Below are positions 1 to 4,999 of a stretch of DNA of 64,000 nucleotides, piece after piece. The stretch covers positions 744,001 through 808,000 of the forward strand of contig NZ_CP019344.1 in NCBI RefSeq assembly GCF_002117125.1, read 5' to 3'. Within the stretch, counting starts at the first letter, position 1; every line of letters starts with the position of its first letter. The notes below the pieces were generated by a model, which was not told where the DNA came from, made no database searches, and was given only the letters and a program-made list of their open reading frames with translations. A program made the position numbers and the translations under genes. Origin of the DNA: Nonlabens spongiae. GTDB taxonomy: Bacteria > Bacteroidota > Bacteroidia > Flavobacteriales > Flavobacteriaceae.

Positions 1-3000
1 TGCGAGCCAAATGCCGTATGAAATATAGTTGCCATCCCATTTCAATAAAAAAGGACTAACATGTTTCCCTCGTATTTGTTTAACATAAGTCTCATCAAGC
101 TTATAATTAGCATTGAATTTTCTCGAATCTTTGTCCTTTCTGACTTGTGGCGGTGTACCTTTTCCAATTTGATATTCTTTAATCCCACCCATGGTATTCG
201 ACACATTTGATAATGCAATCGAATTTCTCTTAATTTTCTGGAAGATTATTATTTGATTAGAATTCAACGTTACCGTAAAATTCAAGCCATCATTATTTTT
301 AAAGTTATTTTGATCAAAGTTATTTATCAATCTAAACTCCTTCTCTTTAAGCCTTTTAAATTCAGATTTACGTGGCTCAAAACCAAAAACATAAATTAAA
401 ACATCAACGGATGCATCTTCAAAAACCTTATCTCCACATTCTGAAATTTCCCAAATGTTAGCGTGAGTTAAAAGAAAATCTCTCAGATGTTGCGAGTTTT
501 TATTAGCTAAAAAAGCATTAGGTAGAATAAAAGAAACAATCCCTTTGTGATTTTTTAAGTATTGAGCCTTTTCTATAAATAAATGATATAAATCAAATTG
601 GTTTTCAGCAACTTTGAAATTTTTCAGATACCAGATAGTTTCCTTTTCATTTTGATATCTAGGTCGTACATAAGGCGGATTCCCAATCACCACATCAAAT
701 CCTCCTCCCTTCGCTGAAGCTACGGAAGGCTCGCCCCATCTTGCTGAAGCTCTGGAAGGCTCACCACCTTTTTCCTGCGCTTCCTCTAGCGTAGTGCACA
801 TCTCGTTGATGATCTGTTTGAGCTCGTCACTATGTTCAGGCAGCTCGTGTTTTAAGCGGTTGTTTCGTATGTATTTTAAGGTATTGTCCAGCTGTTCCTG
901 TGTGGTGACCTCTTTAGGAGCGCTGTATTTTTGAGACCAGAGCGGTTTGTTTTTCTGACTTCCAGCGGGCTTATCATTACCTAAAGGTGTACTAATCTCA
1001 AGGGGCTTAAGCCCCTTGAGATTATTACGCTTTCCTAATGCATAACTACTCCTACCCTTTATAAACTGTATGATCTCAGGAATTTCCTCCAGTTCACAAT
1101 ACAGCAATAAATGGATATGATCTGCACAGATGTTATAGGCCAAAACATCCAGATTCTTTTCTTTTATCACATCCTTAATCGCCTCTGTGATAACCAGATC
1201 ATCTTCTGGAGTGAAATAGATCACATTGGGATATGGATTTGTTCCTGCCTCACGATTTTCCCGCACCTTATATTTTTTCATGCGGTGTGAAGTACGGCTA
1301 TCGTGGAGCGCAGTGGTAATGTGATAAACGCTCTTAGGCTTGGCCCTAAAAACCTGCGGAAACTCCTCTTCCCACTTGAAAGCTTTATCGCCAGCTACCT
1401 TTTTACTATCGATCAGGCTGTTACCGCACTTAATGTTGCTGCTCAAATCGTTGAGTTTGCGGCGCGGCTGCGCCGTGCGTAGCCACAGCGATAGTTTGGC
1501 AATCTCCACACTTTCCTCATTCAGGTCCACACCGTAGATGTTGTTCTCAAGAATGGTATTCTCGATATCGGGAAAGGTAAAGCCACCGCCCAGCAGCTTG
1601 GTTTTTAATTCATCAATGTACTCGTGTTCCTTGATCAAAAAGTCCAATGCCTGATTCAAAAAGGCCCCACTACCACAGGCGGGATCACAAATCGTGAGCG
1701 ACAGCAGCCACTCGCGGTAATCGTCCAAAATCTGGATCAGTCGCTTAAGCGTTTTCTCCTGCCGGTTCTTACGACCTTTGAAATATTCCTCCTCGGCAAA
1801 GCCCAGTTCTTCCTTCTTCTCGGTACATAGCTTGCCCACCGTGTTTTCCACGATGTATTTGGTAATGTATTTAGGCGTGTAGAAAACGCCGTCTTTCTTG
1901 CGTTTACTGGTCTGTTTGTCAAAAGTATCGCCTTCAATCTCGGCATTCACGCTCTCGATCTCATTAAGCGAGTTCTCAAAGATGTGGCCCAAAATATTGA
2001 CATCTACCTGACTGGCAAAATCATAATTGGACAGCTGCAAGGTGTGTTTGTATAACAGGTCATTGTCTATTTCCAGCGCGTCGAGAATCGCATCGGGTTT
2101 GAACAGGCCGCCATTGTAGGCGTAAATTTCTGCACGTCGCGGCGTTCCCTTTCTACCCGTGTCAAGAAACGTAAAATATTGCTTGAACAAACCGTACAGT
2201 GGCCGCTCGTCGCCGAAATCCACATCATCCTTCCACTTGTTCAGGATCTGCAAGGTGGAATTAGAGGGCAATAGCAATCGGTCTTCCGCAAAAAAGATGA
2301 ACAGGAACCGGTCGATCAGTTTTTGAGATTTCTTGAATAACGTGAGCTTTACATTTTTCTCCAGGCGTTTTAAATCCTCGTCCCGATTGCTATCGGGATC
2401 GCCCACTTCGACTCCGTGGTCGCTGAGCATTTCGACTTCGCTCAATGACCTCGGAGCCGAAGCGCCTGGTGATCGGCTTTCGTTCAAATCTGCAAGCTTA
2501 GCCTTTACCGTTTTGGAATTACGCTTTATTAGGTCGCGGTACAACTCCCGCTTGAACAGCGAGTAATCCTTGTAGAACTTTTTGGTAATCGCCTCCTCCT
2601 CTGCCAGCGACTGTTCCTTGATCTTGAGCGGTACATCGTTGAGCACGTTATCCTTATACAGGCATAGATACAGTAGGTGGAACCGCTTTCGCGAAAGCGA
2701 GAACAGATCAAACTCCTCAAACTCCGTAGCATCATTGATGTAAAAACGCAGCTTCTCAAAGTTGGACGTGATAACGTAAACACAGTCCGGCTGGTTGTTC
2801 TTGTAGCCAAAAGCCTGCTGGCGTATGCTCTCCAGGTCCTTGGTTTTGGTTCCCTTGAGTTCGATCACCGCAACCGCTTTACCATCGTTGAGAATCGCGC
2901 CGTCTGCCTTTTTGGAATCGGTCACGTTCTTAAATTCCGTGGTCAGATTAAAATCCGGTTTGGGACTTAACGTGTAGCCCAAAATATTGACAAAGAGCTC

Positions 3001-3165
3001 ATCGAGGAACTTGGCTTGGAATTGCTCCTCTTTATTGGCCCTGATATTTTCCTGGATAGTAGTGTTATGAAAATATTTCTGGAATTTCTTGTATGATTTA
3101 TCTACGGTGTCAACATCCAGTTGCGCGAGATGCGACTTGAGTACAGAAGTTTGAAATAATGCCAT
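1..3165 (-). CDS. Type IIG (Eco57I-like) restriction-modification protein with embedded Y1 transposase domain, 3' partial
   Basis: An uninterrupted 1055-codon reading frame runs from an ATG at 3165 off the left edge. N-terminal PD-(D/E)xK-type nuclease residues are visible: D88 and IELKG with E102 and K104. The adenine-N6 methylase core follows: GVFYTPKYIT near 430, motif I DPACGSGAF at 494-502, GVDLNEE, CGNSLID, and catalytic NPPY at 829-832. A TaqI-like specificity region begins after about 985. This is the architecture of single-chain restriction enzymes that cut DNA at a distance from the site and methylate adenine. Between FPQVF (residue 606) and GGGFDVVIG (about 820) lies roughly 190 residues of HUH/Y1 transposase, which ordinary family members lack. 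A second, low-complexity insert sits at about 229-262. The gene faces away from umuD. I checked the frame through both inserts and found no shift. Family assignment is firm; the target site and nuclease activity are unknown. Confidence 0.9.
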   Translation of the reverse strand, partial: MALFQTSVLKSHLAQLDVDTVDKSYKKFQKYFHNTTIQENIRANKEEQFQAKFLDELFVNILGYTLSPKPDFNLTTEFKNVTDSKKADGAILNDGKAVAVIELKGTKTKDLESIRQQAFGYKNNQPDCVYVITSNFEKLRFYINDATEFEEFDLFSLSRKRFHLLYLCLYKDNVLNDVPLKIKEQSLAEEEAITKKFYKDYSLFKRELYRDLIKRNSKTVKAKLADLNESRSPGASAPRSLSEVEMLSDHGVEVGDPDSNRDEDLKRLEKNVKLTLFKKSQKLIDRFLFIFFAEDRLLLPSNSTLQILNKWKDDVDFGDERPLYGLFKQYFTFLDTGRKGTPRRAEIYAYNGGLFKPDAILDALEIDNDLLYKHTLQLSNYDFASQVDVNILGHIFENSLNEIESVNAEIEGDTFDKQTSKRKKDGVFYTPKYITKYIVENTVGKLCTEKKEELGFAEEEYFKGRKNRQEKTLKRLIQILDDYREWLLSLTICDPACGSGAFLNQALDFLIKEHEYIDELKTKLLGGGFTFPDIENTILENNIYGVDLNEESVEIAKLSLWLRTAQPRRKLNDLSSNIKCGNSLIDSKKVAGDKAFKWEEEFPQVFRAKPKSVYHITTALHDSRTSHRMKKYKVRENREAGTNPYPNVIYFTPEDDLVITEAIKDVIKEKNLDVLAYNICADHIHLLLYCELEEIPEIIQFIKGRSSYALGKRNNLKGLKPLEISTPLGNDKPAGSQKNKPLWSQKYSAPKEVTTQEQLDNTLKYIRNNRLKHELPEHSDELKQIINEMCTTLEEAQEKGGEPSRASARWGEPSVASAKGGGFDVVIGNPPYVRPRYQNEKETIWYLKNFKVAENQFDLYHLFIEKAQYLKNHKGIVSFILPNAFLANKNSQHLRDFLLTHANIWEISECGDKVFEDASVDVLIYVFGFEPRKSEFKRLKEKEFRLINNFDQNNFKNNDGLNFTVTLNSNQIIIFQKIKRNSIALSNVSNTMGGIKEYQIGKGTPPQVRKDKDSRKFNANYKLDETYVKQIRGKHVSPFLLKWDGNYISYGIWLA
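711..765. repeat. 30-bp tandem duplication at the exit of the embedded transposase domain
   Basis: Two imperfect 25-base copies (711-735 and 741-765) lie 30 bp apart, sharing GCTGAAGC and GGAAGGCTC blocks. They keep frame and encode the linker GEPSRASARW / GEPSVASAKG just before the NPPY region. Each copy contains a small CTTC-GCT-GAAG-like dyad, typical of short flavobacterial palindromic repeats. Confidence 0.7.
781..1347 (-). other. IS200-like/REP-associated (RAYT, Y1_Tnp) transposase domain embedded in frame in the methylase
   Basis: Residues about 607-795 of the restriction-modification protein read as a RAYT-type single-strand DNA transposase. VYHITTALHDSR resembles the family's opening strand. 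ICADHIHLLL carries the HUH metal-binding pair H683/H685. FIKGRSSYAL is the following helix. LKYIRNNRLKHEL carries the expected catalytic tyrosine Y765 in the YIxNN context. All catalytic residues appear intact. The domain sits exactly between the CGNSLID region and the NPPY motif, as if inserted into a surface loop. A 32-bp perfect palindrome lies inside it and a 30-bp tandem repeat closes it, which recalls REP sequences that flank stand-alone RAYT genes. Activity and origin by insertion are inferences. Confidence 0.82.
993..1024. repeat. 32-bp perfect palindrome inside the embedded transposase domain
   Basis: The sequence is its own reverse complement from 993 to 1024, centred on GGGGCTTAAGCCCC. 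It is translated as KGLKPLEIS-like residues (about 714-724) between the HUH helix region and the Tyr motif. As single-stranded DNA it would form a long hairpin, the kind of structure RAYT and IS200 transposases bind. The palindrome is certain; a functional link is inference. Confidence 0.85.
2381..2481. repeat. Palindromic repeat insert translated in frame (SEVEMLSDHGVEVG type)
   Basis: About 100 bp encode residues 229-262 of the restriction protein, a stretch unlike its surroundings. It starts with TCCCGATTGCTATCGGGA (2381-2398), one mismatch from the perfect palindrome at 10319-10334. It continues with the TTCGACT..GGTCGCTGAGC..TTCGACTTCGCTCA motif that I know as a dispersed repeat in flavobacterial genomes. 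The reading frame is preserved, so the repeat is tolerated as a protein insert. Confidence 0.65.
2684..2699. repeat. CGCTTTCGCGAAAGCG palindrome, copy 1
   Basis: Perfect 16-bp palindrome inside the restriction-modification gene, read as SLSRKR. Confidence 0.95.
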
Positions 3166-3326: not shown

Positions 3327-3737
3327 ATGACGATTAAGAAAGCACTCACCTCTGTACTTGATATACCCTATCTGGGACCCATCTCTTGCGGCTTCCCCTC
3401 ACCTGCTGATGATCATCTGGATGAGGCGATAGATCTTAATAAAGAGCTGATTAAAAATAAGAGCACTACCTTTTTCGGCCGGGTGAATGGGGATAGTATG
3501 AAAGATGCCGGCCTGGACGATGGTGATTTGCTTATCATTGACAAAAGCAAAAAGCCCTCTAATGGTTCTATTGCCGTCTGTTTTCTCGATGGCGAGTTTA
3601 CGGTGAAGCGCATCAAGATCGAGCGAGATCGCGTGTGGCTCATTGCTGAAAATATCAAATATCCACCTATTGAAGTCAAGGCAGATAATGAATTCCTCAT
3701 CTGGGGAATTGTCATTCACGCCATTAAAAGTCTGTAA
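3327..3737 (+). CDS. umuD: UmuD-like S24 self-cleaving protein
   Basis: This 136-residue protein matches UmuD, the subunit that self-cleaves after RecA activation and joins UmuC to form a translesion polymerase. Visible elements are the cleavage site C21-G22 followed by FPSPADD, nucleophile S57 in NGDSM, and general base K94 in FTVKR. The E. coli residues have the same spacing, shifted by three. The stop codon overlaps the umuC start (TAATG), indicating translational coupling. Like UmuD it lacks a DNA-binding domain, unlike LexA. Damage regulation is expected from the family but no operator was identified. Confidence 0.93.
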   Translation: MTIKKALTSVLDIPYLGPISCGFPSPADDHLDEAIDLNKELIKNKSTTFFGRVNGDSMKDAGLDDGDLLIIDKSKKPSNGSIAVCFLDGEFTVKRIKIERDRVWLIAENIKYPPIEVKADNEFLIWGIVIHAIKSL

Positions 3738-4999
3738 TGTTTGCCCTGGTCGACTGCAACAATTTCTACGCGAGCTGTGAGCGAGTTTTCAATCCTGCAC
3801 TTAATGGTAAGCCTGTCGTGGTGCTTTCTAATAATGATGGTTGTGTCATCGCACGTAGCAATGAAGCCAAGCAATTGAACATTAAAATGGGAACACCCAC
3901 ATTTGTGATCAAGGATATGATTGCCAGCAAAAGAGTTCACGCCTTCTCTTCTAACTATGCGCTTTACGGAGAGATGAGCGCCCGGGTGATGGAAATCCTG
4001 AGCCGGTTCAGTCCAGATTATGAGGTTTATAGTATAGATGAGATTTTTATAAAATTGGAAGGATTCACCTACCACAACTTGAGAGAATATGGTGCAAAAA
4101 TGATCTCTAAGGTCACAAAAGGAACCGGCATTCCCATAAGCGTAGGCATCGCGCCCACAAAGGCTCTCGCCAAGGTAGCTAATAAAATCGCCAAAAAGTT
4201 TATACATAAAACCGGTGGCGTTCATGTAATCGATAGTGAAGAATTGATGGAAAAAGCGCTGCTCTGGACTCAAATTGATGATGTCTGGGGCATCGGTAGG
4301 CGCTATGCGGAGAAACTCAAAAAAATAGGTGTCACCACGGCACGGGATTTCACACAACTGCCCGATGCCTACGTTCTGAAAGAGATGACCGTGGTAGGCT
4401 TGAGACTCAAGCGCGATCTTTCTGGGAAACCTACGCTCGATCTTGAAGAAATGGCAGATCGTAAAAACATGGCAGTAACCCGATCATTTAAAAATGATAT
4501 TACTGATTATGCCGCTTTACGCGAAAGAGTAGTCACCTATGTCACTAAACTTGCCGAAAAATTGAGAAAGCAAAACAGCTGCTGCCAAAGCCTGCAGATC
4601 TTTATCCACTCAAACCCACATAAGAAAGAGCATAGAAAGTATTACAACAGCGTTACCATCAATCTTCCCTACGCGACTAATTCAACCATCGTTATGACTC
4701 AATATACCTTAAAGGGTCTACAAAAGATTTTTTTAAAAGGTATTCTCTATAAAAAAGCGGGAGTCATAGCCTTAGGACTCGCACCTAACGACAGCCGACA
4801 GCTCGCTATTTTTAAAGAAGAAACCGCAGAGCACGCTGCTCTATTCAGCTCTGTAGACCATCTGAATAAAAAAAATCATGGGAAAATCAAATTTGCAGGC
4901 CAGGACCTTAACTCCACTTGGAAAATGCGGTGCGAGCACTTAAGCAAGCGGTACACGACACGTTTACACGAGATCATCACTATAAGATGCAATCATTAA
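3737..4999 (+). CDS. umuC: UmuC-like Y-family DNA polymerase V catalytic subunit
   Basis: At 420 residues this is the usual length for UmuC. Catalytic acidic residues D6 (MFALVD) and D101-E102 (YSIDEIF) are present, along with the diagnostic VVLSNNDGCVIARSNEAK block. An HhH-type segment (DDVWGIGRRYAEKLKKIG) lies near 185-200 and a little-finger region fills the C-terminus. The product performs error-prone synthesis across DNA lesions together with processed UmuD. It is co-transcribed with umuD, with a 1-nt overlap, and ends just before a bidirectional terminator. A degenerate relative of the iterated palindrome occurs near 4513-4528 in this gene. Confidence 0.95.
   Translation: MFALVDCNNFYASCERVFNPALNGKPVVVLSNNDGCVIARSNEAKQLNIKMGTPTFVIKDMIASKRVHAFSSNYALYGEMSARVMEILSRFSPDYEVYSIDEIFIKLEGFTYHNLREYGAKMISKVTKGTGIPISVGIAPTKALAKVANKIAKKFIHKTGGVHVIDSEELMEKALLWTQIDDVWGIGRRYAEKLKKIGVTTARDFTQLPDAYVLKEMTVVGLRLKRDLSGKPTLDLEEMADRKNMAVTRSFKNDITDYAALRERVVTYVTKLAEKLRKQNSCCQSLQIFIHSNPHKKEHRKYYNSVTINLPYATNSTIVMTQYTLKGLQKIFLKGILYKKAGVIALGLAPNDSRQLAIFKEETAEHAALFSSVDHLNKKNHGKIKFAGQDLNSTWKMRCEHLSKRYTTRLHEIITIRCNH

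Follow-up and report, generated by a model that had tools for sequence, protein, structure and literature searches.

The window analysed here, a stretch of 64,000 nucleotides from Nonlabens spongiae (contig NZ_CP019344.1, positions 744,001 to 808,000), opens in a gene for a type IIG restriction-methylation enzyme of the Eco57I family (1..3165, minus strand; PADLOC REase_MTase_IIG, 1.9e-262), and this gene carries in frame a Y1 HUH (single-tyrosine, histidine-hydrophobic-histidine) domain of the kind found in RAYTs, the tyrosine transposases associated with repetitive extragenic palindromes (REPs). The reading that we favour, with modest confidence, is that this is a RAYT/REP element which lives in frame inside type IIG genes and moves its REPs, and itself, by its own HUH chemistry. 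The intact domain lies at a fixed point before the methylase motif NPPY, holds a conserved internal palindrome and is accompanied by in-frame copies of that palindrome in the linkers of the gene; it is present or absent in near-identical hosts and rarely occurs as a free copy. That its own HUH chemistry drives the movement is something we infer, and recombination between alleles is the main rival.

An intact transposase domain between two methylase motifs

The host protein, P0001, has 1284 residues, of which 1055 are encoded inside the window (whole gene at G000:C1:743311-747165). An earlier note, made on this DNA from its letters alone, had described a complete RAYT-type domain embedded in the enzyme, and this description stands: the Y1 HUH domain takes up residues 607-796 (778..1347, minus strand), between the CGNSL motif (1414..1428, minus strand) and NPPY (residues 829-832; 670..681, minus strand), where the host frame resumes (GGFDVVIGNPPY). 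It bears the HDSRTS signature of a RAYT subfamily (H621-S626; 1288..1305), the HUH motif H683-I-H685 (1111..1119) and the catalytic tyrosine Y765 within YIRNNR (871..873), all on the minus strand. When 113 inserts from 120 proteins were aligned, seven without a motif being left out, DSRTS, H683, W743, Y765 and R770 were kept in every one, D682 and H685 in 112 and H621 in 111. The dN/dS values were between 0.06 and 0.27 in eight of nine chosen pairs, those with a finite dS, indicating purifying selection. Given that the HUH, tyrosine and DSRTS positions are near-invariant and dN/dS is low, the active site appears to be maintained.

The earlier note had looked to a structure model for an HUH fold, and our model of the insert matches the RAYT structure of E. 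coli TnpAREP (PDB 4ER8) in both fold and active-site layout. The insert combines an HxH motif and a single tyrosine with the Y1 HUH fold and associated REP hairpins, the features by which RAYT/TnpAREP proteins are recognised; its score against NCBIfam NF047646 (REP_Tyr_transpos) is 48 bits, below the curated cut-off of 80 bits. One could suppose instead that this is an ordinary variable or target-recognition region of the enzyme which resembles a transposase by chance, and the spot before NPPY does take short extra peptides in 7 of 107 homologues that lack the domain. However, the Pfam domain search and the structure comparison both refute this, and we give it practically no credence.

Enzymes of this family without the insert, referred to here as empty, had been said to run straight from CGNSL to NPPY, and so they do. 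A search with the methylase region gave at least 8000 matches, and amongst the best 120, which were examined, 107 were empty, 9 were occupied and 4 lacked a motif, with a Y1_Tnp domain in 10. The distance from CGNSL through NPPY is exactly 41 residues in 100 of the 107 empty homologues and 46-73 in the other seven, as against 225-253 in the occupied ones and 253 in P0001, whose host part is an enzyme of the Eco57I kind. A peptide resembling SLR..TKQS, which we take to be a translated CGTC-type REP, occurs in nine of the 107 empty proteins, four times exactly at the insertion point and five times in the linker around residue 220, and in that same linker in 2 of 114 occupied proteins.

The earlier note knew of no characterised example of the fusion; the survey for the same insertion point, which it had itself proposed, shows that the fusion is not a one-off. 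A protein search with the insert region returned 145 proteins at E<=1e-3; all of the 120 listed have both Eco57I and Y1_Tnp domains, and 113 have the insert between the same two motifs. Free RAYTs are absent from this search because it admitted only proteins of 0.55-1.75 times the query length. A search of genome contigs (GTDB) found 114 relatives, 80 loci of which were kept and fetched. In 73 the insert stands in a methylase frame, defined by a CGNSL-type motif before it and/or an NPPY-type motif after it, and in seven it is free-standing (L020, L065, L066, L068, L070, L076 and L082). Across 67 fused loci, HDSRTS lies exactly 41 residues past the start of CGNSL in 57; the spacing is longer in seven, each with a REP between, and shorter in L023 (34), and two are without the CGNSL pattern. 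Record titles place the fused loci, many of them from metagenome-assembled genomes, in six phyla: Bacteroidota, Chlorobiota, Ignavibacteriota, Neomarinimicrobiota (Fidelibacterota), Cloacimonadota and Pseudomonadota. Within the window's own family a strong match (E<1e-20) was seen in 6 of 397 genomes, each from a different genus; weaker matches in the family fall in frames of 100-223 residues, presumably free RAYTs, with the exception of L097 at 621. Carriage by viruses or plasmids was rejected: viral contigs gave 26 pattern matches and no relative, and the plasmid collection gave none by tblastn.

Some of these loci deserve separate mention. L097 (G072:C54, around 940904-941377) is another fusion, in which a 621-residue frame finishes C-terminally in a RAYT-like domain and the part before it by eye resembles cobyrinate synthase (CbiA/CobB type). 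The frames of seven fused genes (L011, L017, L022, L029, L035, L046 and L064) span only 677-926 codons compared with about 1200-1300, so that some copies look broken after the insert. L065 (CP034120.1) is titled Glaciecola (Gammaproteobacteria) and may be mislabelled; its RAYT and the preceding gene resemble the Fluviicola loci L066 and L082.

REPs within the insert and along the host gene

The insert contains a 32-bp palindrome (993..1024) with the core CAAGGGGCTTAAGCCCCTTG at 999-1018, made up of a 14-bp stem and a TTAA loop. Across relatives the consensus is CAAGGG-N8-CCCTTG, situated in the variable segment between the HUH motif and the tyrosine. We compared the best palindrome of each insert with 60 synonymous-codon draws in 74 rows, comprising 62 fused loci, 7 free ones and 5 from the genome search, two of which repeat a gene; six rows without a bounding motif and six variant loci were left out. 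The mean score was 10.0 compared with 5.0 under the draws, and p<0.05 was reached in 68 of the 74 rows, which are related and hence not statistically independent. The stem changes in a compensated manner, with all four pairs at position 8 (GC 46, AT 46, CG 26, TA 26) and at position 4 (GC 109, TA 23, CG 4, AT 3). Taken together, the draws and the compensated changes point to selection or copying at the level of DNA. Over 211 sites the palindrome is mostly preceded by YAA and followed by TCA, with no GT[AG]G foot. The palindrome is REP-like, as the earlier note had held in arguing for a REP origin; the two 30-nt direct repeats at the insert exit (713..772, minus strand), which it had cited in the same sense, form a pattern without another site in the genome and are uninformative on origin. 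We also rejected these repeats as a trace of insertion, on the same ground and on the alignment of relatives.

REPs were then counted over the 67 fused loci with a single criterion, taken from the insert palindromes and applied to all DNA alike, the remainder of frame-broken genes being counted as flank. There are 106 in 40.2 kb of insert (2.64/kb), 87 in 184 kb of remaining open reading frame (ORF; 0.47/kb) and 18 in 457 kb of flanks (0.039/kb), so that the rest of the ORF, where REPs lie in frame in linkers, is 12-fold denser in them than the flanking DNA. At least one REP is found in the host part of 36 of the 67 loci, and these recur at the same linkers, near P0001 residues 95, 220, 415, 466, 587-592, 1186 and 1210-1228; within the insert the recurrent positions are near residues 643, 714-733 and 780-795. 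For 55 of 88 host-part REPs (one gene being counted twice), most empty homologues show a gap at the corresponding position. The similarity of host-part REPs to the insert REP in the same gene is 0.916, compared with 0.764 +- 0.019 under random pairing (0 of 2000 permutations, 34 genes), and 26 of 85 equal that insert REP exactly against a mean of 5.3 under permutation. Outside the insert, 27 of 114 occupied proteins have REP-like peptides, compared with none of 107 empty ones. At the DNA level, 30 empty-site loci were looked at, three being without a frame and the single match lying in a fused gene, and no REP was found in the 20 empty-site ORFs for which DNA was available.

The 23 fused genomes together contain 75 exact REP sites, 38 of them within the fused ORF, and a reversed control pattern gave one site among the fused and free genomes. 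Twenty genomes chosen because they lack a match to the insert profile gave nine pattern sites, in five genomes, and four for the reversed control; in the eight pattern sites listed the core does not pair fully. The linker at residues 220-241, which bears CAAGGG REPs in some relatives, has in the window a REP-like repeat of another family (CNTTTCGACTNCGCTCANTG; 2430..2450, plus strand; residues 220-245) with 22 genome sites within one mismatch. Outside the gene, a palindrome of L010 (G000:C1:182289-182312) is one compensated pair away from the window REP core.

Occupied and empty alleles, and what may move the insert

The occupied P0071 from Gelidibacter pelagius and the empty P0154 share 97.8% identity once one gap of 184 residues is set aside, so the same site is found occupied or empty in near-identical hosts, as in homing-type elements. 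Such exact recovery of the empty site is reminiscent of IS200/IS605 elements, whose precise single-strand excision is the model for the movement that we propose. More widely, 42 of 169 occupied rows (some genes appearing twice) can be paired with an empty homologue that is at least 75% identical in the left host part and at least 60% in the right. A host-core tree of 58 occupied and 58 empty rows, which includes the window gene twice, requires 19 changes of occupancy, or at least 14 when judged by starred branches; the left host part alone requires 16, or at least 8 when judged in this way, and the right part alone 38. The left part of the window gene is nearest to an empty protein (P0121, 94%), whose right part is only 37% identical. 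Agreement between the insert tree and the host tree is poor (Mantel rho 0.15, p 0.022), with a shared nearest neighbour in 13 of 57, and part of this discord is recombination inside the host.

Free copies are consistent with movement out of the enzyme. L020 encodes a 184-residue copy that lies between ilvA (assigned by eye) and the gene that follows; REPs stand at both of its ends and a further one is internal, and this REP-RAYT-REP unit (L020:5956-6573) has perfect inverted ends of 25 nt. It nests among fused Flavobacteriaceae inserts, within a starred branch of 19 rows; the remaining six free copies group together (support 89) next to fused ones.

The mechanism we propose would run as follows. 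The HUH domain would bind its own hairpin when the gene that carries both is single-stranded, and cut and rejoin hairpin DNA through Y765; REPs may in this way be copied into nearby tolerated linkers, and the REP-RAYT unit may shift from one allele to another or, on rare occasions, to a free REP-RAYT-REP form. Because the insert sits in a loop, the host enzyme would tolerate it, and for that reason the element, unlike an intein, would need no splicing. Judged from sequence, such a mobile in-frame unit would be expected to leave the traces seen here: an intact HUH domain, an internal hairpin, copies of this hairpin nearby and a clean pattern of presence or absence. A broader proposal, which we advance only tentatively, is a new class of mobile element embedded in proteins. 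It would be a homing-like HUH domain, independent of splicing, that occupies one loop at a catalytic site of restriction enzymes and moves between alleles via single-stranded DNA, with the host gene as a main landing ground for its REPs.

Several observations weigh against the mobile-element reading. Six of the 74 rows carry no palindrome beyond chance at p<0.05; most REP sites lie elsewhere than in the fused gene in G123 (4 of 5), G411 (9 of 11) and G419 (18 of 21); and the trees do not distinguish gain from loss. The insert and the left host part have histories that are not fully independent (rho 0.26), and the left and right parts of the host, itself a mosaic, correlate at a rho of 0.18. 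Tested as a group, 16 occupied/empty pairs showed no excess of flank co-conversion over 67 empty/empty pairs (p=0.64), which leaves co-conversion unsupported at group level as proof of homing, and discordance at fourfold sites, a test of recent transfer with low power, passes Bonferroni correction in only 1 of 780 pairs.

It is possible, if unlikely in our view, that the insert is a passenger which entered long ago and has since spread or been lost only through recombination or transfer of type IIG genes, its REPs being evened out by gene conversion and its HUH domain playing no part in movement today. The lean of the insert's history towards the left host part would fit this, as would the differences between P0071 and P0154, where six of the nine on the left fall within 29 residues of the site and none in the 415 residues before, as if the flank had travelled along. 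Host genes also recombine heavily: in L043 and L044, DNA identity is mostly 91-100% as far as about codon 755, drops to about 25-58% across the target-recognition part and returns to 100% beyond it. A passenger would, however, leave unexplained the near-invariant HUH and tyrosine residues and the purifying selection, the match between host REPs and their own insert REP together with the lack of any in the empty homologues examined, and the free copy with REPs at both ends; the 16-pair flank test, too, showed no excess.

The L043/L044 exchange (codons 755-1090) is clean, with unrelated flanks, and L043 REPs at codons 723 and 1118 bracket it. We abandoned the idea that the RAYT drives such exchanges, since the target-recognition part varies among empty homologues too.

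A further alternative is that the domain has been domesticated, and is kept because it adds single-strand hairpin binding or nicking for defence or target choice. Its kept catalytic residues and low dN/dS, its position adjoining the methylation motif and the six phyla named in the titles of its fused loci are in keeping with this, but an empty enzyme of 97.8% identity exists, strong matches are confined to 6 of 397 family genomes and copies occur free of the enzyme, and we regard domestication as quite improbable. The earlier note had offered either an in-frame entry or a retained working domain. Both find some support, the catalytic residues having been kept, yet presence or absence in near-identical enzymes speaks against a fixed module; a maintained mobile element therefore fits better than a fixed defence module.

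Related systems and the host locus

E. coli TnpAREP, alike in fold and active-site layout, is a separate gene, and its REPs are dispersed genome-wide. The TnpA proteins of IS200/IS605 elements (IS608, ISDra2) share the Y1 HUH fold and belong to autonomous insertion sequences, not to a domain embedded in frame. Inteins and homing endonucleases have a patchy presence at a fixed point near an active-site motif, a trait shared here; P0001, in contrast, has no Pfam match to a splicing (HINT) domain at E<=1 and its nuclease is of the HUH type, and we use the homing-like label by analogy.

The nearest free proteins that we know from the available text of Quentin et al. 2018 (PMC6006769) are TnpAREP subclass 2.4 (RAYT group 4), with a median of 194 residues, NH[IFV]H and YIxNNP motifs, and a GT[AG]G foot in the double-foot REP type. 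As in that subclass, Bacteroidetes are among the hosts and a REP lies in frame between HUH and tyrosine; in contrast, the inserts have DHxH, YIxxNR and the HDSRTS signature, by flank composition their REPs are without the GT[AG]G foot, and the domain forms part of a type IIG enzyme rather than being encoded by a free gene. The same text mentions a few unexpectedly long TnpAREP proteins that were discarded as gene fusions or annotation errors. GTAG and CGTC REPs and Rickettsia palindromic elements also place short palindromes in frame within proteins, perhaps in linkers or loops, as far as the available text describes (PMC3733652, 2013); those repeats lie in unrelated genes, CGTC apparently without a dedicated transposase, whereas here the transposase domain is in the same protein. 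Within the open-licence PubMed Central literature searched, as far as its available text extends, we found no description of a RAYT domain fused to a type IIG enzyme.

The available part of a 2021 TnpAREP study states that mobility of tnpAREP is without evidence and that the spread of REPs is yet to be elucidated (PMC8266576). Occupied and empty alleles, a free copy and REPs concentrated in the enzyme's own gene offer a natural system for testing both, and if the broader proposal made above is true it would be the first evidence of a tnpAREP gene itself moving, as far as the literature searched, available in part, can tell. The fusion also suggests that a restriction enzyme tolerates a complete nuclease domain in frame beside a catalytic motif, which would bear on protein engineering and on the ways in which mobile elements establish themselves in defence genes.

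As for the enzyme itself, nuclease, methylase and target-recognition domains lie in one chain of P0001, as expected of type IIG, by profiles and, for the nuclease, by eye. The candidate nuclease motif D88 ... E102-L-K104 (2854..2904, minus strand), presumably of the PD-(D/E)xK type, has nearly invariant columns in the homologue alignment, and methylase motif I reads DPACGSGAF (1660..1686, minus strand). Since extra peptides are tolerated in the loop ahead of NPPY, the host enzyme is probably still active despite the insert; its nuclease and methylase motifs are kept. Genes that by eye from their translations are UmuD-like and UmuC-like adjoin the enzyme gene on the opposite strand (window 3327-4999); among 23 genomes of the genus including the window's own, one other matches this umuDC side, at 65%. 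The same genome also has an empty type IIG paralogue, L165 (G000:C1:1176897-1179983).
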